Part shown: positions 21,130 to 42,232 of the stretch, piece after piece
Position numbering within the stretch: position 1 is the first letter of the stretch
Layout: the number at the start of each line of letters is the position of its first letter
Origin: Bacillota bacterium
Lineage (GTDB): Bacteria; Bacillota; Clostridia; Caldicoprobacterales; DTU083
DNA: 64,000 nucleotides
Direction: 5' to 3'
Assembly (NCBI GenBank): GCA_029549985.1
Contig: JAKPIB010000015.1
Span: forward strand, 1-64,000
The notes under the pieces: model-generated
Told to the model about the DNA's origin: nothing
The model's input: the letters and a program-made list of their open reading frames with translations, nothing else
Database searches by the model: none
Position numbers and translations under genes: made by a program

Positions 21130-26674
<5,545 letters not shown>

Positions 26675-26743
26675 GGAAAGCCAAATACTACTAAAAGAGG
26701 AGGTGCTGCCGGGTGCTTGTCAGATGAGCACTCTGGCCTGAGT

Positions 26744-29065
26744 ATGAAATTCTCCAACGGATTGTGGCTCAACAGGGAGGGTGTAAATATATACAGCCCT
26801 GCTGAAGTAGCCGATCATGAGATTAGAGACGGTAAGCTTATATTGACCCTGCCCCATATCAGAATCGTACACCGGGGGCAGACCCTGGCCGGACCTGTGC
26901 TGACAGCGGAGCTAAGCTCCCCCATGCCTGATGTCATCAAAGTCAGGGTATATCATTACAAGGGCTGCAGAAAAAAGGGTCCTGATTTTGAACTATCTGA
27001 GGACAAAACCGCTCCTATCGAAATCACTGAATGCGAAGAGACGATAGAATTTAAAAGTGGGAGCACCAAAGCTGTCATCAGCATCAAAGACTGGTCAATG
27101 GACTTCTATTACGGCGAAAGGTACCTGACCGGCACGGGCAGGAAGAACATGGCCTATATAACCGCCCCGGAAGGCAATTTTATGAGAGAACAGCTCGGCC
27201 TTCAGGTTGGCGAATGTGTCTATGGCCTTGGCGAACGCTTTACTCCCTTTGTTAAGAACGGGCAGGTAGTCGATATTTGGAACAGAGACGGGGGTACATC
27301 GTCTGAGCAGGCTTATAAAAACGTGCCCTTCTACCTGACCAACAGGGGCTACGGCGTGTTTGTCAACCATCCGGAGTGCGTATCATATGAAATCGCATCC
27401 GAGGTAGTGTCCAGGGCCCAGTTTTCCGTTCCGGGTGAAGAGCTGGAGTACTTCATTATCGGAGGCTCATCGCTCAAGGAGGTAATCAAGAACTATACTG
27501 ACCTTACGGGCAAGCCGGCCCTGCCGCCTGCATGGTCCTTCGGGCTGTGGCTGACGACATCCTTTACGACAAGCTATGACGAGGATACCGTGAACAGCTT
27601 TATAGACGGCATGGCCCAGCGTGACCTGCCTCTGCATGTTTTCCACTTTGACTGCTTCTGGATGAAGGAGTTCGAATGGTGCAACTTTGAATGGGACGAC
27701 AGGGTCTTCCCCGACCCAGAGGGAATGCTGAGAAGGCTCAAAGAAAAGGGCCTTAGGATATGTGTGTGGATCAACCCCTACATCGGCCAGAAATCCAGGT
27801 TGTTTGATGAGGGCATGAAGCGAGGCTATCTGCTGAAAAGGCCCAACGGGGATGTCTGGCAGTGGGACCTGTGGCAGCCGGGTATGGGCATAGTAGATTT
27901 TACAAATCCGAAAGCTTGTGAATGGTATGCCGGCTATCTCAGAAGGCTCATCGATATGGGTGTTGACTGCTTCAAAACCGACTTTGGCGAAAGGATACCG
28001 ACTGATGTCGTATACCATGACGGTTCCGATCCCGAAAAAATGCACAACTACTATTCCTATCTCTACAACAAGGTGGTTTTCAAGGTACTCGAAGAAAAGC
28101 TGGGCAAGGGCAAAGCAGTAGTGTTTGCCCGTTCCGGCACAGCCGGCTCACAAAGATTCCCCGTCCACTGGGGCGGTGACTGCATATCGAGCTATGAGTC
28201 CATGGCTGAGAGCCTGCGGGGCGGCCTGTCCCTGTGCCTTTCAGGCTTTGCATTCTGGAGCCATGATATAAGCGGCTTTGAGAGCACTGCATCTCCTGAC
28301 CTTTACAAGCGCTGGGTCGCTTTCGGCCTGTTGTCGACCCACAGCAGGCTGCACGGCAACAACTCCTATAGAGTGCCCTGGCTGTTTGATGAAGAAGCCG
28401 TTGATGTGCTTAGGTATTTCACCAGGCTGAAATGCAGGCTGATGCCTTACATATTCAGTAAAGCGGTCGAGGCGTCCAAAGATGGGCTGCCGCTGATGCG
28501 GGCCATGGTCCTGGAGTTTGAGGATGATCCGGCCTGCGACTATCTTGACCGCCAATACATGCTGGGCGACTCCCTGCTTGTTGCTCCCGTATTCACAAGG
28601 ACCGGTGATGTGGCCTATTACCTGCCGGAAGGAAAATGGACGTCCTTTATAACAGGCGAAACTGTTGCGGGTGGAGCCTGGAGAAAAGAGCACCACGGCT
28701 ATATGAGTATACCCCTGATGGTCAGGCCCAATTCGATCATCCCGGTAGGCGCTGTTGACGGCAGGCCGGACTATGACTATGCAGACGGGGTAGAGTTCCA
28801 TGTGTTCAACCTTGAAGAGGGAGCTGCTGCAAGAGCATCGGTGTATAATGCCTGCGGCGAGTCTGAGCTGGTCTTGATGGCAGAAAATCGAGACGGTAGC
28901 ATGGTTTTTGAACACAAAGGCCGTGACTGCAGGTACACGATCCTTTTGAGAAACGTAGAAGCAGTTGCAGAAGTACGCAACGGATCCTGTGAAGCAACTG
29001 TTTCAGGTATGAAAGTGACCCCTCTTGACATAAGCAGTCCGGTGATAGTCAGGCTCAAGGGCTAG
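26744..29065 (+). CDS. Glycoside hydrolase family 31 alpha-xylosidase, YicI type
   Basis: 773 residues from ATG 26744, whose product opens MKFSNGLW like E. coli YicI. An in-frame TTG at 26717 lies 13 bases after AGAGGAGG and would add nine residues; this is better for the ribosome site, worse for homology. Nucleophile D413 (CFKTDFGER) and acid/base D479 (HWGGDCIS) correspond to YicI D416 and D482. The residues linked to xyloside preference are kept: DCFWMKEF and the Lys in FKTDFGE. It is cytoplasmic and should remove alpha-1,6-xylose from the non-reducing end of xyloglucan oligosaccharides. Last gene before a terminator. Confidence 0.93.
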   Translation: MKFSNGLWLNREGVNIYSPAEVADHEIRDGKLILTLPHIRIVHRGQTLAGPVLTAELSSPMPDVIKVRVYHYKGCRKKGPDFELSEDKTAPIEITECEETIEFKSGSTKAVISIKDWSMDFYYGERYLTGTGRKNMAYITAPEGNFMREQLGLQVGECVYGLGERFTPFVKNGQVVDIWNRDGGTSSEQAYKNVPFYLTNRGYGVFVNHPECVSYEIASEVVSRAQFSVPGEELEYFIIGGSSLKEVIKNYTDLTGKPALPPAWSFGLWLTTSFTTSYDEDTVNSFIDGMAQRDLPLHVFHFDCFWMKEFEWCNFEWDDRVFPDPEGMLRRLKEKGLRICVWINPYIGQKSRLFDEGMKRGYLLKRPNGDVWQWDLWQPGMGIVDFTNPKACEWYAGYLRRLIDMGVDCFKTDFGERIPTDVVYHDGSDPEKMHNYYSYLYNKVVFKVLEEKLGKGKAVVFARSGTAGSQRFPVHWGGDCISSYESMAESLRGGLSLCLSGFAFWSHDISGFESTASPDLYKRWVAFGLLSTHSRLHGNNSYRVPWLFDEEAVDVLRYFTRLKCRLMPYIFSKAVEASKDGLPLMRAMVLEFEDDPACDYLDRQYMLGDSLLVAPVFTRTGDVAYYLPEGKWTSFITGETVAGGAWRKEHHGYMSIPLMVRPNSIIPVGAVDGRPDYDYADGVEFHVFNLEEGAAARASVYNACGESELVLMAENRDGSMVFEHKGRDCRYTILLRNVEAVAEVRNGSCEATVSGMKVTPLDISSPVIVRLKG

Positions 29066-29489: not shown

Positions 29490-30935
29490 TTGGAAACCAG
29501 ACGAAATAGACTCAGCGATATAATGCTGTACCTGTTGAGAGCAGTTTCCATACTGCTGATGATCTCCCTTGTACTGCCGGCATTTAATCCGGCCAGATTG
29601 AGCGCTTTGATCAGCAAGGATTCGGCCTTGCTGACCATCTCCTTGTCATATACGTCATTGAAAGGCGGGTTCACCAGGGCTATCAACAGGGGATGGGTAG
29701 AAGAGAGTACCATTACCCTGATATTTTTAGCTTCTGTTGTAATCACTCTAGGTATAGCCATGCTTTCTGCCGGGTGCTTTATGACCCTGGGTAAATTACG
29801 ATTTCAAAAGCTAGGGGCAAGGCTGGCAGCGATAGGGTCAGCGATAGGCATGCCCGGGCTCATCATGCTTATACCTGCATACATTGCAATGTCTCAAACC
29901 GGCAATCCGGTCAAGGTACAGCCCATGCTTCCGATCGGGATCTATGTCCTTTTCGGATTGCTTGCGTTGAATCTTGCGATCAGCCTGATAACTGCGATAA
30001 AGCTCCCAAAGCCCCAGGCTACGGACCGATATGAAATGGAACCCAAGTATCAGTTGTTCCTGATGATACTTCCCTTTGTGATTCTGACCCTTGTATTTGC
30101 CTATTTGCCCTTGTGGGGCTGGAGGTATGCTTTCTTCAATTACAAGCCAGGACTTGGCCTGAACGAGTTTGTCGGCCTCAAGTGGTTCACCTTCCTGTTT
30201 GAAAACCCTGCTACCAGAAGGGACATAGCCAGGGTCATCACAAATACGCTGGCCATGAGCGGTATCGGTATCGCCACTTCATGGCTGCCAATGGCATTCG
30301 CCATATTCCTGGCTGAGATAAAGTCCGCCAGGGTGAGCAGGATGGTCCAGACATTTACTACGATACCCAATTTTATTAGCTGGGTCCTGGTATATACCTT
30401 CGCTTTTGCCCTGTTCTCCACTGAAGGCTTTGTCAATTCCATGCTCATCGACCTGGGCATCATTGAGAAAGGCAGGAATTTTCTGATGGACGGAGATCAC
30501 ATATGGCTGAAGATGTGGGCGTGGAATACCTGGAAAGGACTTGGCTGGAGCGCGATCATCTATATAGCGGGAATATCCGGCATTGACCAGCAGCTATATG
30601 AGGCAGCGACCATAGATGGGGCGGGAAGGTTCAGAAAGATGTGGAATATCACTGTTCCCGGACTTATTCCGACCTTCAGCGTGCTGCTCCTTCTTTCCAT
30701 AGCGGGCATACTGTCAAACGGCATGGATCAGTACTTTGTGTTCAAGAATTCTGCAAACAAGACCACAATAGAAGTGCTGGACCTATATGTGTATACCCTG
30801 GGACTTGGAAGCGGCGGATCGGGTAATATACCGCTTGCTACAGTCGTTGGCATGCTCAAGTCTATTATCAGCGTAACTCTCCTGTTCACTGCCAACCGGA
30901 TATCGAAACTGGTACGCGGCGAGACCATCGTGTAA
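29490..30935 (+). CDS. Carbohydrate ABC permease, LplB/YteP type, with extra N-terminal membrane domain
   Basis: 481 residues from TTG 29490 (AGGAAGTGA seven bases upstream). The C-terminal 300 residues are a normal LplB-type permease: KYQLFLMILPF starts the first core helix near 187 and the EAA loop is LYEAATIDGAGRFRKMW near 370. The first 180 residues are additional, with about four hydrophobic segments (about 12-33, 73-100, 107-130, 143-166); usual members are about 300-320 residues. The core forms the heterodimeric channel with the next gene's product. No in-frame start with a good ribosome site near the core was found, so the extension appears genuine. Its function is unknown. Confidence 0.85.
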   Translation: METRRNRLSDIMLYLLRAVSILLMISLVLPAFNPARLSALISKDSALLTISLSYTSLKGGFTRAINRGWVEESTITLIFLASVVITLGIAMLSAGCFMTLGKLRFQKLGARLAAIGSAIGMPGLIMLIPAYIAMSQTGNPVKVQPMLPIGIYVLFGLLALNLAISLITAIKLPKPQATDRYEMEPKYQLFLMILPFVILTLVFAYLPLWGWRYAFFNYKPGLGLNEFVGLKWFTFLFENPATRRDIARVITNTLAMSGIGIATSWLPMAFAIFLAEIKSARVSRMVQTFTTIPNFISWVLVYTFAFALFSTEGFVNSMLIDLGIIEKGRNFLMDGDHIWLKMWAWNTWKGLGWSAIIYIAGISGIDQQLYEAATIDGAGRFRKMWNITVPGLIPTFSVLLLLSIAGILSNGMDQYFVFKNSANKTTIEVLDLYVYTLGLGSGGSGNIPLATVVGMLKSIISVTLLFTANRISKLVRGETIV

Positions 30936-30948
30936 AGGGGGTAGAACA

Positions 30949-31902
30949 ATGGATGCAGCATACAACACAAAACAGAGCCGGAAGCCGCTTAAAACAAGGA
31001 AACACCGTTATATGCGGGCAAAGGGAGATATTATTTTCAACATAATTAACTATACAGTATTTATACTCTTTACCCTGATATGCATATTTCCCTTTTACTA
31101 TCTGCTGATAAATACGATCAGTGACAATGAACTGGTCAGGACAGGCCAGATCAAGCTATACCCCATAGGTATACATTTTAAGAATTACCTTGCTCTGGTC
31201 AATGTAAACAATCTTGGGGCTTCCGTCATGGTATCGGTAGCCCGTACCGTGATTGGCACTGCTACCATGGTCTTGGCGTCAGCCTTCGTCGGATATCTTG
31301 TCACCAAGCGGAATATGTGGGGCAGGAGGTTTATCTATCGGCTCCTGATCATTACCATGTATTTCAACGCAGGCCTGATACCCTGGTACCTTAATATGTC
31401 GATGCTGGGGCTGACCAACAACTTCTGGGGGTACATCATACCCGGCATTGTAGCCCCATACAACATAATCCTGGTGAAGACCTATATAGAGTCGATCCCG
31501 GCAGAGCTTGAGGAGAGCGCTTTTGTAGACGGTGCGGGTTATTTCACTATATTCAGGAAAATCATCTGGCCGCTCAGCAAGCCGATCCTGGCGACTATAG
31601 CAATATTCGGGGCAGTGGGACACTGGAACAGCTTTACCGATTCAATGATCCTGATGTCCGGCAAGCCGGAGCTCTATACCTTGCAGTATCGTCTGTATAT
31701 ATACCTGAGCAGCACTTCGAACCTGTCAGCCCTTATGAATTCAGGCGGATCGGTTAACGAGTCGGTATTGAACGCAGCCCTAAATATGAGGACAGTCAAG
31801 CTTACGGTTGCAATGGTCACGATAATCCCGATACTGCTCGTTTATCCCTTCATGCAGCGTTACTTTGAAAAGGGCATCATGATAGGTGCCGTTAAGGGCT
31901 GA
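30949..31902 (+). CDS. Carbohydrate ABC permease, LplC/YtcP type
   Basis: 317 residues, six membrane segments, EAA loop ELEESAFVDGAGYFTIFRK near 182. It starts 13 bases after the first permease (AAGGGGG upstream of ATG) and is the second half of the import channel for polymer-derived oligosaccharides. It ends MIGAVKG, the standard terminus of this subfamily. No ATPase gene is near; importers of this type commonly share a global MsmX-like ATPase encoded elsewhere. Confidence 0.92.
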   Translation: MDAAYNTKQSRKPLKTRKHRYMRAKGDIIFNIINYTVFILFTLICIFPFYYLLINTISDNELVRTGQIKLYPIGIHFKNYLALVNVNNLGASVMVSVARTVIGTATMVLASAFVGYLVTKRNMWGRRFIYRLLIITMYFNAGLIPWYLNMSMLGLTNNFWGYIIPGIVAPYNIILVKTYIESIPAELEESAFVDGAGYFTIFRKIIWPLSKPILATIAIFGAVGHWNSFTDSMILMSGKPELYTLQYRLYIYLSSTSNLSALMNSGGSVNESVLNAALNMRTVKLTVAMVTIIPILLVYPFMQRYFEKGIMIGAVKG

Positions 31903-31989: not shown

Positions 31990-33729
31990 ATGAACATTTC
32001 AAAGAAGATCATTGCCATACTGCTGATAAGCGTTATGGTATTCTCTTTCGCAGCCTGTGGCAGCAAAAAAAATGCTGACCCCTCGCCGGCTCCTTCAGGA
32101 AGCGGCGACAAGCTGGCAGACATCATACCCAAGGAGACAGTCAAGCTGACAGTCTACACGCAGCTTGCCAATTACTCAGGCGAGCAGATCGGTTGGTTCG
32201 CCCAGGTCATGAAGGAGAAGTTCAACGTAGTACTGAATATCATCAATGAAGGGGACGGTACCTTCGCTACCCGTATGGAATCCGGAAACCTCGGTGATAT
32301 AGTGGTATTTGGCAATGACAGTGATGAATACCTGCAGGCTGTAGAAGCAGGCATGCTGTTTGACTGGGAGGAAGACAGCCTGGTTGAGGAATATGGCCCA
32401 TATATATGGGAAAACATGCAGGCAGCCCTTGATAAGAACAGAAACCTTTCGGGAGGAACCCTGTACGGCTTCGGCCACAATGTAGGTTCAAACTCCGAGG
32501 ACCATGAGGCTTTCTTCTACCGCCCGGACATCCGCTGGGACTTGTATGCCAAGCTCGGATATCCGGAAGTTAACACACTTGAAGACTTCATAGATATTCT
32601 TGAGGACATGGTCGCCCTTGAGCCTACATCCGATACAGGTGGAAAGACATACGGCGTTTCCATGTTCCCTGACTGGGACGGCAACATGGTCATGATGGTC
32701 AAATCGACCGGCGCACTCTACGGTTATGATGAGTTCGGTTTCGGCCTCTACCATGCTGAGAGACAGGTATATGAAGATGCCCTGATGGAAGGCGGGATGT
32801 ACCTGAGAGCTCTGAAGTTCTACAACAAGCTGTACCAAAGAGGCTTGCTGGATCCCGATTCCATGACCCAGACCTATGACGAGATGTCTGAAGCTTACCA
32901 GACAGGTGCAGCTTTCTTCAACATCTTCGACTGGATGGCAAGCGGCCTTTACAACACAGAAGCACACCTTTCCCAGGGCAAGGCAATGATGCCCCTGGCT
33001 GCAAAGGATCAGAAGAATCTCGCTTACGGCCTTAATGTAAATGGTGGAAACCGTGTATGGACCATCGGTGCGAATACGGCCTACCCAGAGCTTTGCATGG
33101 CAATAATCAACTGGCTGTCGACTCCTGAGGGAGTGATGACCACCCTGTACGGACCTAAAGGCGTAACCTGGGATTACAATGAAGATGGAAATCCGTTCCT
33201 GACCGATCTCGGAGAAGCAGTGATGATGGACGGAAATACAGAGATGAGCGGTGGATATACCGGCAAGTTCATTGACGGAACAAGCAAGATCAACAATACG
33301 ACATGGTCGACCGATGCAACCAATCCGGAAGCGGCTGATGGCAGCACCTACAATTACAAGTACTGGAAGACAAGGGCTGACCGTCCTGTAACAGAAATAG
33401 AGCAGGATTGGAGAAACAAGACCGGTTTCTCGGATGTACTGCACTACCTCGAGGATCAAGGCCATGTAGCGGTCAAAATTGCCACAACCTATTCTGAAGC
33501 ACCGAAGAGCGACGAGCTTATGACAAAGTGGAACCAGGTTGCGGAAACGATCAAGACCTACTCCTGGAGAGCTATTTACGCAAAGAGCGATGCTGAGTTC
33601 GACAAGCTTGTTGAAGAGATGACAAAAAAGGCGAATGAGTACGGCTATCAGGATTGCGTAGAGTTCCAGAGGGGCGAGGCTGCCAAGCTCAAGGCCCTTG
33701 AGGATGCGGTAAAGAGCTCTGGCAACTAA
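31990..33729 (+). CDS. Oligosaccharide-binding lipoprotein, LplA type
   Basis: 579 residues with a lipoprotein signal peptide ending FSFAAC (Cys near 23), followed by a Ser/Pro/Gly linker and a family 1 extracellular solute-binding fold of the large LplA/YtcQ class (500-560 residues mature). It captures the oligosaccharide outside the membrane for the two upstream permeases. Codon use is richer in preferred codons than the neighbours (for example long runs of ATC and AAG), consistent with high expression. Strong AGGAGG at 31979-31984. A terminator follows. Confidence 0.93.
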   Translation: MNISKKIIAILLISVMVFSFAACGSKKNADPSPAPSGSGDKLADIIPKETVKLTVYTQLANYSGEQIGWFAQVMKEKFNVVLNIINEGDGTFATRMESGNLGDIVVFGNDSDEYLQAVEAGMLFDWEEDSLVEEYGPYIWENMQAALDKNRNLSGGTLYGFGHNVGSNSEDHEAFFYRPDIRWDLYAKLGYPEVNTLEDFIDILEDMVALEPTSDTGGKTYGVSMFPDWDGNMVMMVKSTGALYGYDEFGFGLYHAERQVYEDALMEGGMYLRALKFYNKLYQRGLLDPDSMTQTYDEMSEAYQTGAAFFNIFDWMASGLYNTEAHLSQGKAMMPLAAKDQKNLAYGLNVNGGNRVWTIGANTAYPELCMAIINWLSTPEGVMTTLYGPKGVTWDYNEDGNPFLTDLGEAVMMDGNTEMSGGYTGKFIDGTSKINNTTWSTDATNPEAADGSTYNYKYWKTRADRPVTEIEQDWRNKTGFSDVLHYLEDQGHVAVKIATTYSEAPKSDELMTKWNQVAETIKTYSWRAIYAKSDAEFDKLVEEMTKKANEYGYQDCVEFQRGEAAKLKALEDAVKSSGN

Positions 33730-33769: not shown

Positions 33770-33805
33770 AAATGGGTTTTCCGGCAACGGAAAGCCCATT
33801 TTGCG
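33770..33805 (+). terminator. Terminator-like hairpin after the binding-protein gene
   Basis: Fourteen-base stem AAATGGGTTTTCCG/CGGAAAGCCCATTT (33770-33783 with 33788-33801; one T-G wobble), four-base loop, then a T-containing tail. The 130 bases that follow, up to the next gene, show no clear promoter. Confidence 0.65.
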
Positions 33806-33936
33806 TTTTAAAATATGCAAATCAGGGAGGAAAAGCAGACCTGTGTAAAGAAAAACATGGTAGTATCACCCGATAAAGGGGCAGATAAAATAAAGGCAGG
33901 ACCAAAAGCAACCTTAGTGGATAAGGAGGAATGAAA

Positions 33937-35658
33937 ATGAACGGGTACAAGAATTTCAACGCAGCTATCTATTGCCCGGTCGGCGACCTGATCAACCTGA
34001 CGGACCTGGATAAGTTTTCAGAGCAGCTTGATTGGATCGAAAAGCAAGTCAGGGTCGGGAAGGTATACCTGGAGACCTATCGCCACGGCAGGACGATAGA
34101 CAGAGATCAAATCGAGCGCTTGATCGAGTTTTTCAACAAACGGGGTATAGAAACCTCAGGGGGCATTACCACGGACGCCCCTCCGGGCGGTGAAGGCGGC
34201 TTTGATCCTTTGTGCTATACCAGCAATGAAACGATAGGACTCCTTACAAAAGTGGTTGAGCTGACGGCATCCCTTTTTGATGAGTTCATCCTTGACGACT
34301 TTTATTTCACCAACTGCAGATGCCAGTCCTGCATAGAAGCAAAGGGGGAAAGGACCTGGGCGCAGTTCCGTCTGGACCTGATGAGGGACATCTCGGAAAA
34401 TGTCATCATAAAGACAGCAAAGCGGGTCAATCCCAATGTGAAGGTCATCATCAAGTACCCCAACTGGTACGAGCATTATCAGGATAGCGGCTACAACCTG
34501 GAAGATGAACCCCGCATTTTCGATATGGTCTACACTGGTACAGAAACCCGCAATCCTGCATATACACAGCAGCACCTGCCCAAGTATCTGAGCTACTTTT
34601 TGATGCGCTACCTTGAAAATATCGCCCCGGGCCGCAACGGTGGCGGATGGTATGATCCGTATGAATGTACATACAATTATACTTCCTATGCACAGCAGGC
34701 ATATTTGACCCTGCTCGCCAAGGCAAGGGAGGTCATGATGTTCTCTTTAGGCTCCCTGCTGAGTCCTCAATATTCGCTTTGCATACCAATCAACGGGCAG
34801 ATTTTCAGCGATATGGACAAAGTGCTGGGGCTATTGGGGAATCCTACGGGTACGGCCTGTTATCTTCCTGTTCACGGCCACGGTGAAGATTACCTGCACG
34901 ATTATATCGGCATGCTCGGCATACCCCTTGAGCCGGTGCCCGAATACCCACGATCGGCCAGGACAGTCTTCCTCACGGAAAGTGCTGCCATTGACTGCCG
35001 GATAATAGAAAAGGTCAAGGGCACCTTGTCCGCCGGCGGCACTGTCATAGTGACATCAGGCTTCCTAAAGGCAGCCTCGCCTATGGGCTTCCAAAAGGAG
35101 CTGGCCAATGTAGTCCATACCTCCAGGAAGGCCATGATCAACACCTATGCATATTCAGACAATGGGGGCGTTACCTTTGGCGGCCGCCTGGAAGCAGCAA
35201 AGTCTGTGGTGATACCCCAGCTCGAGTTCATGACCAATGACACCTGGGAGCTTGTTGCAGGCCTGGGTGAAGACAACGGCTTCCCGCTCCTGCTCAAGAC
35301 CATCTACGGCAAGGGCAGGCTCTATATCATGACGATACCCGATGACTATGGCGATCTGTACCATTATCCAAGAAAGATATTGTATGAGATACGCCGGGTA
35401 TTTTGCCCTGACAGCCCTGTCAAGCTGGATGCATTCTCCAAGGTCGCCATGTTTACATATGACAACAACTGCTTTGCCCTTCATTCCTTCCAGCCATGGT
35501 ATGATGAGATACGTCTTGTGCTGAGAAAGGACTATGACGCGCTATTGGACCTGGTCAGCGGCCGTATCCTGGAGGCAAGACCGGAAAACGAAGGCATGGT
35601 GGTCCGGCTCCGTATGATACCCGGCATAAACTATATCTTTGAGCCGATCTCAAAGTGA
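33937..35658 (+). CDS. Uncharacterised glycosidase-like protein (TIM-barrel plus amidotransferase-like domain)
   Basis: 573 residues from ATG 33937, seven bases behind GGAGG; the ATG at 33931 abuts the ribosome site. I do not recognise a named family. The N-terminal 300 residues look like a (beta/alpha)8 barrel: repeated strand-helix units and an acidic strand-end DEFILDDFYFTNCRCQSC near residue 115, reminiscent of the putative glycosyl hydrolase (GHL) superfamilies. Residues about 330-480 (RTVFLTESAAIDCRIIEKVKG, then GGTVIVTSGF) look like the amidotransferase-like trimerisation domain of GH42-type enzymes. No signal peptide. Its position between the importer and a GH74-like gene argues for a role in breaking down the imported sugar; the activity is unknown. 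Confidence 0.7.
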   Translation: MNGYKNFNAAIYCPVGDLINLTDLDKFSEQLDWIEKQVRVGKVYLETYRHGRTIDRDQIERLIEFFNKRGIETSGGITTDAPPGGEGGFDPLCYTSNETIGLLTKVVELTASLFDEFILDDFYFTNCRCQSCIEAKGERTWAQFRLDLMRDISENVIIKTAKRVNPNVKVIIKYPNWYEHYQDSGYNLEDEPRIFDMVYTGTETRNPAYTQQHLPKYLSYFLMRYLENIAPGRNGGGWYDPYECTYNYTSYAQQAYLTLLAKAREVMMFSLGSLLSPQYSLCIPINGQIFSDMDKVLGLLGNPTGTACYLPVHGHGEDYLHDYIGMLGIPLEPVPEYPRSARTVFLTESAAIDCRIIEKVKGTLSAGGTVIVTSGFLKAASPMGFQKELANVVHTSRKAMINTYAYSDNGGVTFGGRLEAAKSVVIPQLEFMTNDTWELVAGLGEDNGFPLLLKTIYGKGRLYIMTIPDDYGDLYHYPRKILYEIRRVFCPDSPVKLDAFSKVAMFTYDNNCFALHSFQPWYDEIRLVLRKDYDALLDLVSGRILEARPENEGMVVRLRMIPGINYIFEPISK

Positions 35659-39051: not shown

Positions 39052-39181
39052 TACCTTATCTATTTAACTTCATTACTAGTACTTTGCGCAAAATAGTATA
39101 AATTTCATTATACTAATGCTGCAAATGGCAATAATAACAGAATGAGGTTTCACAAAGACCTTGTTCAATGGGAGGTATATT

Positions 39182-40183
39182 TTGAAGATAGGTATACCAA
39201 GAGCGCTGTTATGGAGCATTTATCTTCCTCTATGGAAAGCCTTTTTCAACGAGCTGGGGCATGAAGTTGTCCTCTCTCCGCCGACCAACAAGAAGATACT
39301 GAATGACGGGGTAACGGCCTGTGTGGATGACGCATGTCTGCCGGTAAAAATCATGCACGGGCATGTCATTGATCTGATGGACAGGGCAGACCTTATTTTC
39401 ATCCCCAGGCTTATCAGCATTTGCCCTAGAGAGTATATCTGCCCCAAATTCATTGGCCTGCCGGAGATGATCAGAAACTCCGTAGCGGGCGGGCCGAAGC
39501 TGCTGGTCCTGGATTTCAATGCACATAAAAGCATCAGGCACGGCTATGATGGCTTTATTGCAATCGGCAGGCAGCTGGGTGCACGGGAGAGCGCTGTCAG
39601 GAGGGCACTTGCCAGAGCGATGAAGGCCCAGGATGAATATACAGCCAGGCTGCTTGGGGGCTCAAATCCGTTGATGTTGCTCGAAGGCATGGCCCTGCAT
39701 GCAGGCATCGGGGGTAATAAAGGGACGATCGGGTTGATAGGGCATCCGTATTTGCTGTATGACAGGTTTGTCAGCATGGATGCCTGCAGGAAGCTTGCCC
39801 AAATGGGATATCGGCTGATCTTCCCGGAAAACATTCTCCCCGAGCAGATCGAAAGGACTTGCTCAATATATCCAAAAAAGCTTTTCTGGAGCTATGGAAA
39901 GCACCTGCTTGGCAGTGGTCTTGCTATGCTGGAAAAGGGTATGGCAGACGGGATAATTGTGCTGTCAAGCTTTGGCTGCGGCATAGACTCATTCATGGTA
40001 GAGCTGCTGCAGCGGCAGAACCAAAGAGATTTTCGGATACCACTGACAGTCATCACCCTTGATGAGCACAGCGGAAACGCAGGCTTTGATACCCGACTGG
40101 AAGCATTCGTGGACATGCTGGAATGGAGGGATCACAATGGTCATTACTTTTCCCCACATGGGGAGGGTTTATATATCTGTTAA
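39182..40183 (+). CDS. DUF2229 (CoA-enzyme-activase associated) protein A
   Basis: 333 residues from TTG 39182, six bases after GGGAGG; the frame opens earlier at TTG 39161 but that lies before the ribosome site. IGIPRALLWSIYLPLWKAFF at the start and CVDDACLPVK (C47, C52) are hallmarks of the DUF2229 module related to the HgdB/FldBC-type subunits of 2-hydroxyacyl-CoA dehydratases. In many Clostridia this module is fused behind two activase domains in a protein of about 1400 residues; here it is free-standing. A CPREYICPKF stretch may supply more cluster ligands. Its 3' end overlaps the next gene by 47 bases. Confidence 0.82.
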   Translation: MKIGIPRALLWSIYLPLWKAFFNELGHEVVLSPPTNKKILNDGVTACVDDACLPVKIMHGHVIDLMDRADLIFIPRLISICPREYICPKFIGLPEMIRNSVAGGPKLLVLDFNAHKSIRHGYDGFIAIGRQLGARESAVRRALARAMKAQDEYTARLLGGSNPLMLLEGMALHAGIGGNKGTIGLIGHPYLLYDRFVSMDACRKLAQMGYRLIFPENILPEQIERTCSIYPKKLFWSYGKHLLGSGLAMLEKGMADGIIVLSSFGCGIDSFMVELLQRQNQRDFRIPLTVITLDEHSGNAGFDTRLEAFVDMLEWRDHNGHYFSPHGEGLYIC

Positions 40184-41222
40184 AGCGCTTTTTGATGATT
40201 TGAACGTAAAGCTCGTAGTTCCTCCGCCGGTGAGCAAGAATACCCTGGAGCTCGGTACCAGGCTTGCTCCTGAGATGGCCTGCCTGCCTCTTAAAATAAA
40301 TATCGGGAATTATATCGAAAGCATAAAACGGGGGGCTGATACTATCATCCTGACAGGCAGCTGTGGCCCCTGCAGGTTTGGATACTACGGCGTCGTTCAA
40401 AAGGAGATCCTGAAAGACCTGGGCTATGATGTAAACATCGTTATCCTGGACGCCCCGAATACAGGGTTCAAGGCGTTTATCGACAAAATACGCATGATAA
40501 GCGGATATAGCTCCCTGTCAAGTCTTATGAGAGCATTCAGGGCTGCATTCAAGGTCACTGTCGAAGTCGATGAGCTTATGGATATCGTGTTGAGAAAAAG
40601 GCCAAGAGAAAAGCACAAGGGCGAGACAGACAGGCTTCTCAGCAGGTTTGAACATGATGTTCTGAAGGTGCACGGAAGCACCGAAACACTCGAACTAGTG
40701 GCCATATATAAGGATAAGATCTCAGTCATAGCGGAAGATGAAAAGGCCGACCCTGTACGTATAGGTCTAGTCGGGGAGATCTATACCCTTATAGAGCCTT
40801 ATGTCAACCTCAATGTCGAAAAGAAGCTGGGAAGCCTTGGAGTTGAGGTGCATCGGGGCATCACGCTCACAGACTGGATAAAGACCCATCTTTCGATGGA
40901 TATGAAGTACAAGCGGGCCAGAAGGAATGCATTGGACAAGGCAAAACCGTACCTGGGCCGCTGCATCGGCGGTCATGCATGGGAGACAATAGCGGCCACT
41001 GTAGGTTTCAATGAAAAAGGCATGGACGGAGTGATACAGATCCTGCCCTTTGGATGCATGCCTGAAATCGTGGCTGAGAGCATAATACCGACCATATCCA
41101 GGGACCTGAGCCTGCCCGCGATGACTGTCACCGTGGACGAGCTGACCGGAGAAGCTGGCTACATGACCAGACTGGAGGCCTTTGTTGACCTATTATCACA
41201 AAAGAAAGGAATGGTATCATGA
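40137..41222 (+). CDS. DUF2229/HgdB-like protein B
   Basis: 361 residues from ATG 40137, six bases behind GGAGGG; a longer frame to 40059 lacks such a site and would overlap more. Shares the design of the preceding protein: MACLPLK (C49) and GSCGPCRFGYY (C76, C79), cysteines that in related proteins hold a [4Fe-4S] or double-cubane cluster. Late GGHAWETIAATVGF and PFGCMPEIVAESI also fit. It likely pairs with protein A as a reductase or dehydratase-like component receiving electrons from the activase whose gene overlaps by four bases (ATGA). Confidence 0.82.
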   Translation: MVITFPHMGRVYISVKALFDDLNVKLVVPPPVSKNTLELGTRLAPEMACLPLKINIGNYIESIKRGADTIILTGSCGPCRFGYYGVVQKEILKDLGYDVNIVILDAPNTGFKAFIDKIRMISGYSSLSSLMRAFRAAFKVTVEVDELMDIVLRKRPREKHKGETDRLLSRFEHDVLKVHGSTETLELVAIYKDKISVIAEDEKADPVRIGLVGEIYTLIEPYVNLNVEKKLGSLGVEVHRGITLTDWIKTHLSMDMKYKRARRNALDKAKPYLGRCIGGHAWETIAATVGFNEKGMDGVIQILPFGCMPEIVAESIIPTISRDLSLPAMTVTVDELTGEAGYMTRLEAFVDLLSQKKGMVS

Positions 41223-42232
41223 CCGGTATAGACTTATATATGGGGATCGATGTGGGTTCGGTCAGCGTCAATATCGTGCTGATCGATGAAAAATACAACC
41301 TGCTGGAGAAGCTCTATCTGCGGACCCAGGGCAGGCCGATCAGGATTTTGAAGGAAGGGCTGGAGGAGATCCACCAAGCCCTGCCTCTGCATTCCAGGAT
41401 CGCAGGCGTCGGGACTACCGGAAGCGGGCGGGAACTGGCCAACGCCATAGTATCTGCGGATGTAGTGAAAAATGAAATAACGGCACACGGGACCGCAGTA
41501 CTGCATTACATACCGGATGCCCAGACCATACTGGAGATCGGCGGCCAGGACAGTAAAATAATCCTGCTTAGAAACGGTGTCGTATCAGATTTTGCTATGA
41601 ACACCGTTTGTGCAGCCGGTACCGGCTCATTTTTGGACCGGCAGGCCGAAAGGCTGGGAGTCCCGATCCAGGAGTTCGGGGCCCTGGCCCTCAGATCCGC
41701 TACCCCTGTTCGGATCGCAGGCCGTTGCGCCGTGTTTGCCGAGTCCGACATGATACACAAGCAACAGATGGGCTGCAGTTGTGAAGATATAATCAAGGGG
41801 CTCTGTGACGCCCTGGTAAGAAACTATCTCAACAATGTGGGGAAGGGCAAGGAGATACTCCCCAGGATCGTGTTTCAGGGCGGAGTCGCCGCCAACGTTG
41901 GTATTGTCAAGGCCTTTGAGGAGGCCCTTGATCAGCCGGTCATAGTCCCTGAGCATTTTGATGTCATGGGCGCGATAGGTGCCGGGATCCTGGCCCACAG
42001 GAAAACCTCACGAACCGGTGACACTCGATTCTGCGGATTCAACTCACTTAGAGGGGATTTTGCGGCCCGGACCTTTGAATGCAAAGGCTGCACAAACCTT
42101 TGTGAGATAGTGGAAATCTTGTCCGATGGCAAATTGAGAGCAAGGTGGGGAGGCCGCTGCGGCAAGTGGTCGGTGGCTGCAGGCGATGAAACCGGAAGCT
42201 TAAGTGTGGCCCAGGGAAGTCCTTCTGCATAG
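41219..42232 (+). CDS. 2-hydroxyacyl-CoA dehydratase activase-type ATPase
   Basis: 337 residues of the BcrAD/BadFG ASKHA ATPase family, which drive electrons to low potential with ATP. GIDVGSVSVNIV near residue 9, GGQDSKII near 107, and the single-cluster ligands C131 (VCAAGTGS) and C170 (GRCAVFAESD), 39 apart as in HgdC. After about residue 275 comes an extra Cys-rich tail (TFECKGCTNLCEI, GGRCGKW) which in the fused relatives links the activase to DUF2229. Thus this looks like a natural three-way split of the large fused protein. ATGA overlap with the preceding gene shows tight coupling. Confidence 0.88.
   Translation: MTGIDLYMGIDVGSVSVNIVLIDEKYNLLEKLYLRTQGRPIRILKEGLEEIHQALPLHSRIAGVGTTGSGRELANAIVSADVVKNEITAHGTAVLHYIPDAQTILEIGGQDSKIILLRNGVVSDFAMNTVCAAGTGSFLDRQAERLGVPIQEFGALALRSATPVRIAGRCAVFAESDMIHKQQMGCSCEDIIKGLCDALVRNYLNNVGKGKEILPRIVFQGGVAANVGIVKAFEEALDQPVIVPEHFDVMGAIGAGILAHRKTSRTGDTRFCGFNSLRGDFAARTFECKGCTNLCEIVEILSDGKLRARWGGRCGKWSVAAGDETGSLSVAQGSPSA

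Follow-up and report, generated by a model that had tools for sequence, protein, structure and literature searches.

The gene at positions 33,937 to 35,658 of the window (the whole 64,000-nucleotide stretch of DNA that was analysed) encodes a protein, here called P0001, which founds an orphan family that has no name in the libraries searched (Pfam, NCBIfam and PDB). The scaffold is a known one; the novelty lies in the family and not in the kind of enzyme. Profile comparisons suggest that its nearest relatives are the GHL6/GH151 alpha-L-fucosidase group, followed by GH42, although this order varies with the breadth of the profiles. With moderate confidence we propose that P0001 acts in the cytoplasm as an exo-glycosidase, that its family is new and allied to GH151, and that it uses D120 together with a later carboxylate, probably on an alpha-type bond.

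The translation of the unbroken frame agrees with the earlier note, which had described a 573-residue protein with the motif DEFILDDFYF followed by CRCQSC, and conservation among homologues indicates that this is not a chance pattern. The Asp pair that the note had placed at residues 118-119 lies at positions 120-121. The start at 33,937 is upheld by an AAGGAGG sequence 7 nt upstream and by the start codons of relatives, which agree with it. No signal peptide was seen when the N-terminus was inspected by eye. P0001 is separated from the preceding lipoprotein gene by a terminator-like hairpin (Table 1); a hairpin behind a highly expressed binding-protein gene is a common arrangement.

Table 1. 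Features of the window that concern P0001 and its locus
Feature	Position	Strand	Basis or remark
GH95 enzyme, alpha-L-fucosidase or alpha-L-galactosidase	21130..23481	+	Pfam
GH2 beta-galactosidase, LacZ type	23501..26674	+	Pfam
GH31 alpha-xylosidase, YicI type	26717..29065	+	NCBIfam PRK10658, 1300 bits
ABC sugar permease 1	29490..30935	+	Pfam
ABC sugar permease 2	30949..31902	+	Pfam
Probable sugar-binding lipoprotein, lipobox FAACG	31990..33729	+	no Pfam or PDB match
Terminator-like hairpin, 14-pair stem	33770..33801	+	between lipoprotein gene and P0001
Ribosome-binding site AAGGAGG	33923..33929	+	7 nt before ATG 33937
P0001, orphan glycosidase-like protein	33937..35658 (stop included)	+	573 aa, unbroken frame (translation)
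TIM-barrel N-terminal domain, about residues 1-335	33937..34941	+	AlphaFold2 strands, Foldseek; second half poorly predicted
C93, fourth cysteine of presumed metal site	34213..34215	+	invariant; aligned with GHL6 and GH42 Cys
D120-D121, C-terminal end of strand 4; D120 candidate nucleophile	34294..34299	+	invariant in 42/42
C127-x-C129-x2-C132, presumed structural metal site	34315..34332	+	invariant; aligned with GHL6 and GH42 CxCxxC
E203 (GTETR), just after strand 6, candidate acid/base	34543..34545	+	invariant in 42/42; strand position of low confidence
W238-Y-D240, on or after strand 7; D240 second candidate carboxylate	34648..34656	+	D240 invariant in 43/43
Amidotransferase-like (GH42M-type) domain, about residues 336-492	34942..35412	+	profile alignment to GH42 middle domain and GHL6
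C-terminal beta domain, about residues 493-573	35413..35655	+	AlphaFold2 secondary structure; aligned to GH42 C-terminal domain
GH74 xyloglucanase relative, starting 15 bp downstream of P0001	35674..38046	+	PDB GH74 matches, E 1e-70

Neither P0001 itself, compared with Pfam, NCBIfam and PDB sequences, nor the family profiles, compared with PDB, gave a credible match. P0001 did not match the GH42 models PF02449 and PF08532 at the curated cut-off, and the Pfam and PDB searches returned no sequence match of its family to PF14871 (GHL6) or ALfuk2 (6TVK). When 29 members were scanned singly against Pfam up to an E-value of 10, the best related match was PF08532, at E 0.07 in one member. A Pfam match to DUF5075 (E 0.08) and weak PDB matches to Fur, an engineered I-OnuI variant and Phl p 5b were dismissed as chance, and weak profile matches in two other genomes, to proteins that by eye are GH20-like (L042) and GH5-like (L043), covered short stretches only. 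A literature search of incomplete coverage found no paper describing the family. Its 43 distinct homologues are scattered in the Bacillota, occurring in the genus, order and class of the host and elsewhere in the phylum, and in the class and phylum samples about 5% of genomes have such a gene; a homologue exists in a cultured thermophile, and that of C. oshimai lies at L014:10001-11716. The viral contigs and plasmids searched held no relatives. One homologue of 68% identity, with a GH31 gene upstream, lies on a contig of a metagenome-assembled genome binned as Anaerolineaceae (Chloroflexota; L018), the result of either transfer or mis-binning.

P0001 belongs to the barrel-type fold class. A structure predicted by AlphaFold2 with 12 close homologues had a mean pLDDT of 64.5 and a pTM of 0.49, with barrel strands at residues 8-13, 39-49, 72-78, 116-120, 169-173 and 197-199. 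Strands 1-5 and the C-terminal half were fair, residues 199-294 were poor and count as not predicted, and a prediction of the barrel by itself was no better for residues 200-341. Because residues 199-294 are poorly predicted, we can only infer the substrate and the acid/base. Full-length Foldseek matches of this poor model lay between E 1e-12 and 1e-11 (GH42 1.7e-12, GH164 4e-12), but with TM-scores near 0.3 and an rmsd of 17 Å they reflect domain content and not good superposition. For the model of the barrel alone, the matches were to a general range of TIM-barrel glycosidases, the best being a Cwp19 barrel (E 4.9e-6). Foldseek and profile-profile alignment together bear out the barrel-type N-half and GH42-like C-half described in the earlier note. 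Among the best full-length Foldseek matches, at about 10% identity, was the GH164 beta-mannosidase Bs164 (6T5O, 6T7G), whose catalytic Glu pair lies on strands 4 and 7 (E160, E297); the fold content is similar, but membership of GH164 was rejected since the P0001 family has no Glu at strand 4.

In hhalign comparisons, the 43-sequence family profile matched a widened profile of 49 GHL6 (PF14871) relatives with a probability of 97.6% (P 3.6e-12, 488 columns) and a GH42 profile with 87.9% (P 3.2e-6), while the controls (reversed profiles, GH31, transporters and regulators) gave P values of 0.13 or more. At the level of sequence profiles this demonstrates homology of P0001 to both GHL6/GH151 and GH42. 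The ranking of the two depends on profile breadth, because a narrower first GHL6 set of 29 sequences had a weaker local score than GH42 (60%, P 8.6e-5). The broad GHL6 profile takes in members of unknown activity. GHL6 proteins are GH151 alpha-L-fucosidases or relatives thereof: for one of them the match to 6TVK, the GH151 structure of ALfuk2, has a value of 3.5e-131, and alpha-L-fucosidase activity is known from Mfuc3, in which GHL6 is joined to a GH42 middle domain (PMC4723247). P0001 shares with this group (ALfuk2 6TVK, Mfuc3) the order of barrel, Rossmann-type domain and C-terminal beta domain, the aligned strand-4 Asp, and the placing of a cysteine before strand 4 and a CxCxxC motif after it. 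Unlike them it is about 90 residues shorter, gives no detectable pairwise or HMM match, carries GTETR instead of E-x-E-x-x-P at strand 6, and has a second barrel half that does not align; for residues 160-300 no reliable alignment was obtained with either GHL6 or GH42 (2-3% probability). The GH42 beta-galactosidases likewise share the architecture and the four-cysteine site, and their amidotransferase-like and C-terminal domains align, but in P0001 their strand-4 acid/base Glu is replaced by Asp-Asp-Phe.

Among the 43 homologues, D120, D121, D115, C93, C127, C129, C132, E203, D240 and others are invariant down to about 40% identity; E46, R49, K173, P175, W177, G201, T204, R205, W238, Q254 and E265 are essentially so. 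ALfuk2, which also has Rossmann and C-terminal domains, is reported to use D154 on strand 4 as nucleophile and E235 on strand 6 as acid/base (review PMC10154630). Counting along the 6TVK chain with an offset of 29 identifies D154 as the Asp of FLDIV and E235 as the second Glu of LELESLP. Through the GHL6 profile, D120 of P0001 aligns with GHL6 D165, the equivalent of D154, and the corresponding Asp is present in 49 of 49 GHL6 relatives and 42 of 42 P0001-family sequences. D115 falls on the GHL6 Asp five residues before that position, and C93 and CxCxxC fall on GHL6 cysteines. Its alignment with the nucleophile proposed for GH151 makes D120 the candidate for that role in P0001. Three barrel carboxylates from strand 6 onwards are invariant: E203, D240 and E265. 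Because neither GHL6 nor GH42 could be reliably aligned with this part of the barrel, it is position and invariance that point to E203 as a putative acid/base, and D240 is perhaps an alternative partner. The earlier note had named a lack of carboxylates in the barrel centre as evidence against its reading; several invariant ones lie at the strand ends.

The same residues separate P0001 from GH42. In GH42 and GH164 the catalytic Glu residues are on strands 4 and 7 (PMC7105311). F122 of P0001 aligns with the GH42 strand-4 Glu, which is absent from every member of the P0001 family, Asp-Asp being invariant there; between residues 206 and 264, where strand 7 is poorly predicted, the family has no invariant Glu near the position of the strand-7 nucleophile. 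The catalytic residues and the missing HMM match led us to reject simple membership of GH42. Accordingly, the GH42-like beta-glucosidase of the earlier note was not supported, D120 aligning instead with the proposed GH151 nucleophile, while its wider suggestion of an unrecognised barrel-type glycosidase, of GH42-type architecture and in a xyloglucan-oligosaccharide locus, was supported, with no match to the curated families searched.

A likely mechanism may be drawn from these comparisons. P0001 combines the three domains of GH42 and GH151, namely a barrel with a presumed four-cysteine metal site, an amidotransferase-like oligomerisation domain and a beta domain. It would most likely be a retaining enzyme that works by double displacement, the nucleophile being D120, where strand 4 ends, and the acid/base being E203, which follows strand 6. 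An alpha-type (axial) glycoside would be the likelier target, because this is the arrangement proposed for GH151 alpha-L-fucosidases. GH151-like active sites are typical of alpha-type bonds. In the cell the enzyme would take part in dismantling imported xyloglucan oligosaccharides in the cytoplasm.

The locus is consistent with such a role. Its gene order is ThuA-like, GH95, GH2, GH31, two permeases, lipoprotein, P0001 and GH74, and it has the sugar ABC transporter, alpha-xylosidase and beta-galactosidase that mark a Gram-positive xyloglucan-oligosaccharide locus. The GH31 gene likely starts at the internal ATG 26,744. The adjoining GH74-like enzyme of the earlier note proved by its PDB matches to be a true GH74 relative. 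Inspection of its N-terminus, and of those of its homologues in L012, L017 and L020, showed no signal peptide; it may therefore act on the backbone within the cell. These four proteins are apparently intracellular and lie beside cytoplasmic exo-enzymes, whereas bacterial members of GH74 are mostly secreted. Homologues of the lipoprotein recur in several P0001-family loci despite the lack of a Pfam or PDB sequence match; because no PDB relative was found, it could not be tied to Athe_2052, a xyloglucan-binding protein (9PMY; PMC12710961). After the locus, at 39,161-42,232, lie genes for 2-hydroxyacyl-CoA dehydratase-type proteins (DUF2229) and a BadF/BadG-type activase.

In relatives, too, P0001-type genes often accompany GH31. 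The clade of P0001 forms one branch (support 100/99), and in 8 of its 13 informative loci a GH31 gene lies at most four genes away; L013, L019, L021, L022 and L060 are the exceptions, and L015 and L020, too short to tell, are not counted. GH31 is directly upstream in L014, L016, L017 and L018, the short-form enzyme of L016 matching the alpha-xylosidase MeXyl31 at 1.7e-266. In L082/L083 the family gene is found with LacI, permeases, a lipoprotein, GH29, GH42, GH31 and a GH51-type arabinofuranosidase. Outside the clade the neighbours are an AraC-type regulator, a MatE transporter or a nearby GH28 gene, and since these distant relatives sit outside xyloglucan loci, xyloglucan is not the sole setting of the family. 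In four of them (L051, L052, L085, L086) the gene belongs to a small cluster that also encodes an AraC-type regulator and a MatE transporter and in which no other glycosidases were recognised. The enolase-superfamily dehydratase, epimerase and SDRs of L022/L060 did not resolve into a fucose pathway. In the Mahella-like locus L016 (5430-7726), the histidine kinase gene and the GH31-family pair are separated by genes for a methyltransferase of MtaA/CmuA-like type (URO-D) and for a CobW-type GTPase, which may hint at a methylated sugar.

A useful comparison is Ruminiclostridium cellulolyticum, where imported xyloglucan oligosaccharides are cut in the cytoplasm by GH42, GH31 and the GH3 beta-glucosidase Glu3A, which acts only after the xylosidase and is paired with GH31 in the locus (PMC4780118). 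Its cluster Ccel_2451-2458 resembles the window in the ABC transporter, the GH31 alpha-xylosidase, the beta-galactosidase and the cytoplasmic breakdown of oligosaccharides, but the passages cited here name neither GH74 nor GH95 in the cluster, and a GH3 beta-glucosidase stands beside GH31 where P0001-type loci have the P0001 family. This substitution is the chief attraction of an amended form of the earlier idea, in which P0001 would be a new-family beta-glucosidase that removes backbone glucose after the alpha-xylosidase, in the place of Glu3A, with D121 on strand 4 and D240 on strand 7 as its pair. No GH3 was recognised in L014, L016, L017 and L018, and GH95 or GH29, GH2 or GH42, and GH31 already account for the other side-chain activities; D240 is invariant, and W238-D240 with the next helix weakly resembles GH42 strands 7-8. 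However, known beta-enzymes of the GH42/GH164 type rely on one Glu on strand 4 and another on strand 7, and neither is seen to be invariant here; D120 matches the GH151 nucleophile instead. The earlier note was right that the locus lacks a beta-glucosidase, in that neither GH1 nor GH3 genes were found there, but the genome has one of each on a different contig, about 4 kb from each other. These two genes weaken the case for a missing enzyme, and so does the GH74, which, having no signal peptide, may itself cut the backbone in the cytoplasm. Active-site evidence is thus set against gene context and a weakened argument from absence, and for this reason we place the GH151-allied alpha-type reading before the backbone beta-glucosidase, which gene context favours but which we consider unlikely. 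Similarly doubtful is the broader proposal of a new CAZy family without Glu-Glu machinery, whose Asp-based site would perform the missing backbone-glucosidase step or another unrecognised step in xyloglucan breakdown.

The GH151-allied reading includes a special case, in which P0001 would be an alpha-L-fucosidase or alpha-L-galactosidase proper, a strongly diverged GH151 enzyme acting on the terminal fucose of fucosylated xyloglucan. Such an activity would agree with GHL6/GH151 as the nearest profile, with the shared strand-4 Asp and with the activity of Mfuc3 (PMC4723247). It is harder to reconcile with the E-x-E-x-x-P motif, which was not found after strand 6 in the P0001 family, and with the occurrence of the family in loci without any fucose clue. 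Moreover, a second alpha-L-fucosidase would be partly redundant, because fucosidase-type genes are already present in xyloglucan loci (GH95 in the window, GH29 in L082/L083), and we rate this special case a little lower still than the beta-glucosidase. A non-hydrolase on a glycosidase scaffold, be it a sugar-binding or regulatory protein, a glycoside phosphorylase or a transglycosidase, might be thought of because several distant relatives adjoin a regulator and a transporter and not catabolic enzymes. It is very improbable, for the family has kept several carboxylates and many polar residues at the barrel ends without variation, as expected of an enzyme.

P0001 is of moderate size and should be easy to assay. 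If the proposed reading is correct, it would become the founder of a further family of carbohydrate-active enzymes and would connect, on one scaffold, beta-enzymes like those of GH42 with alpha-enzymes like those of GH151. It would also fill a step in the digestion of imported xyloglucan by Gram-positive anaerobes, including thermophiles such as Caldicoprobacter.
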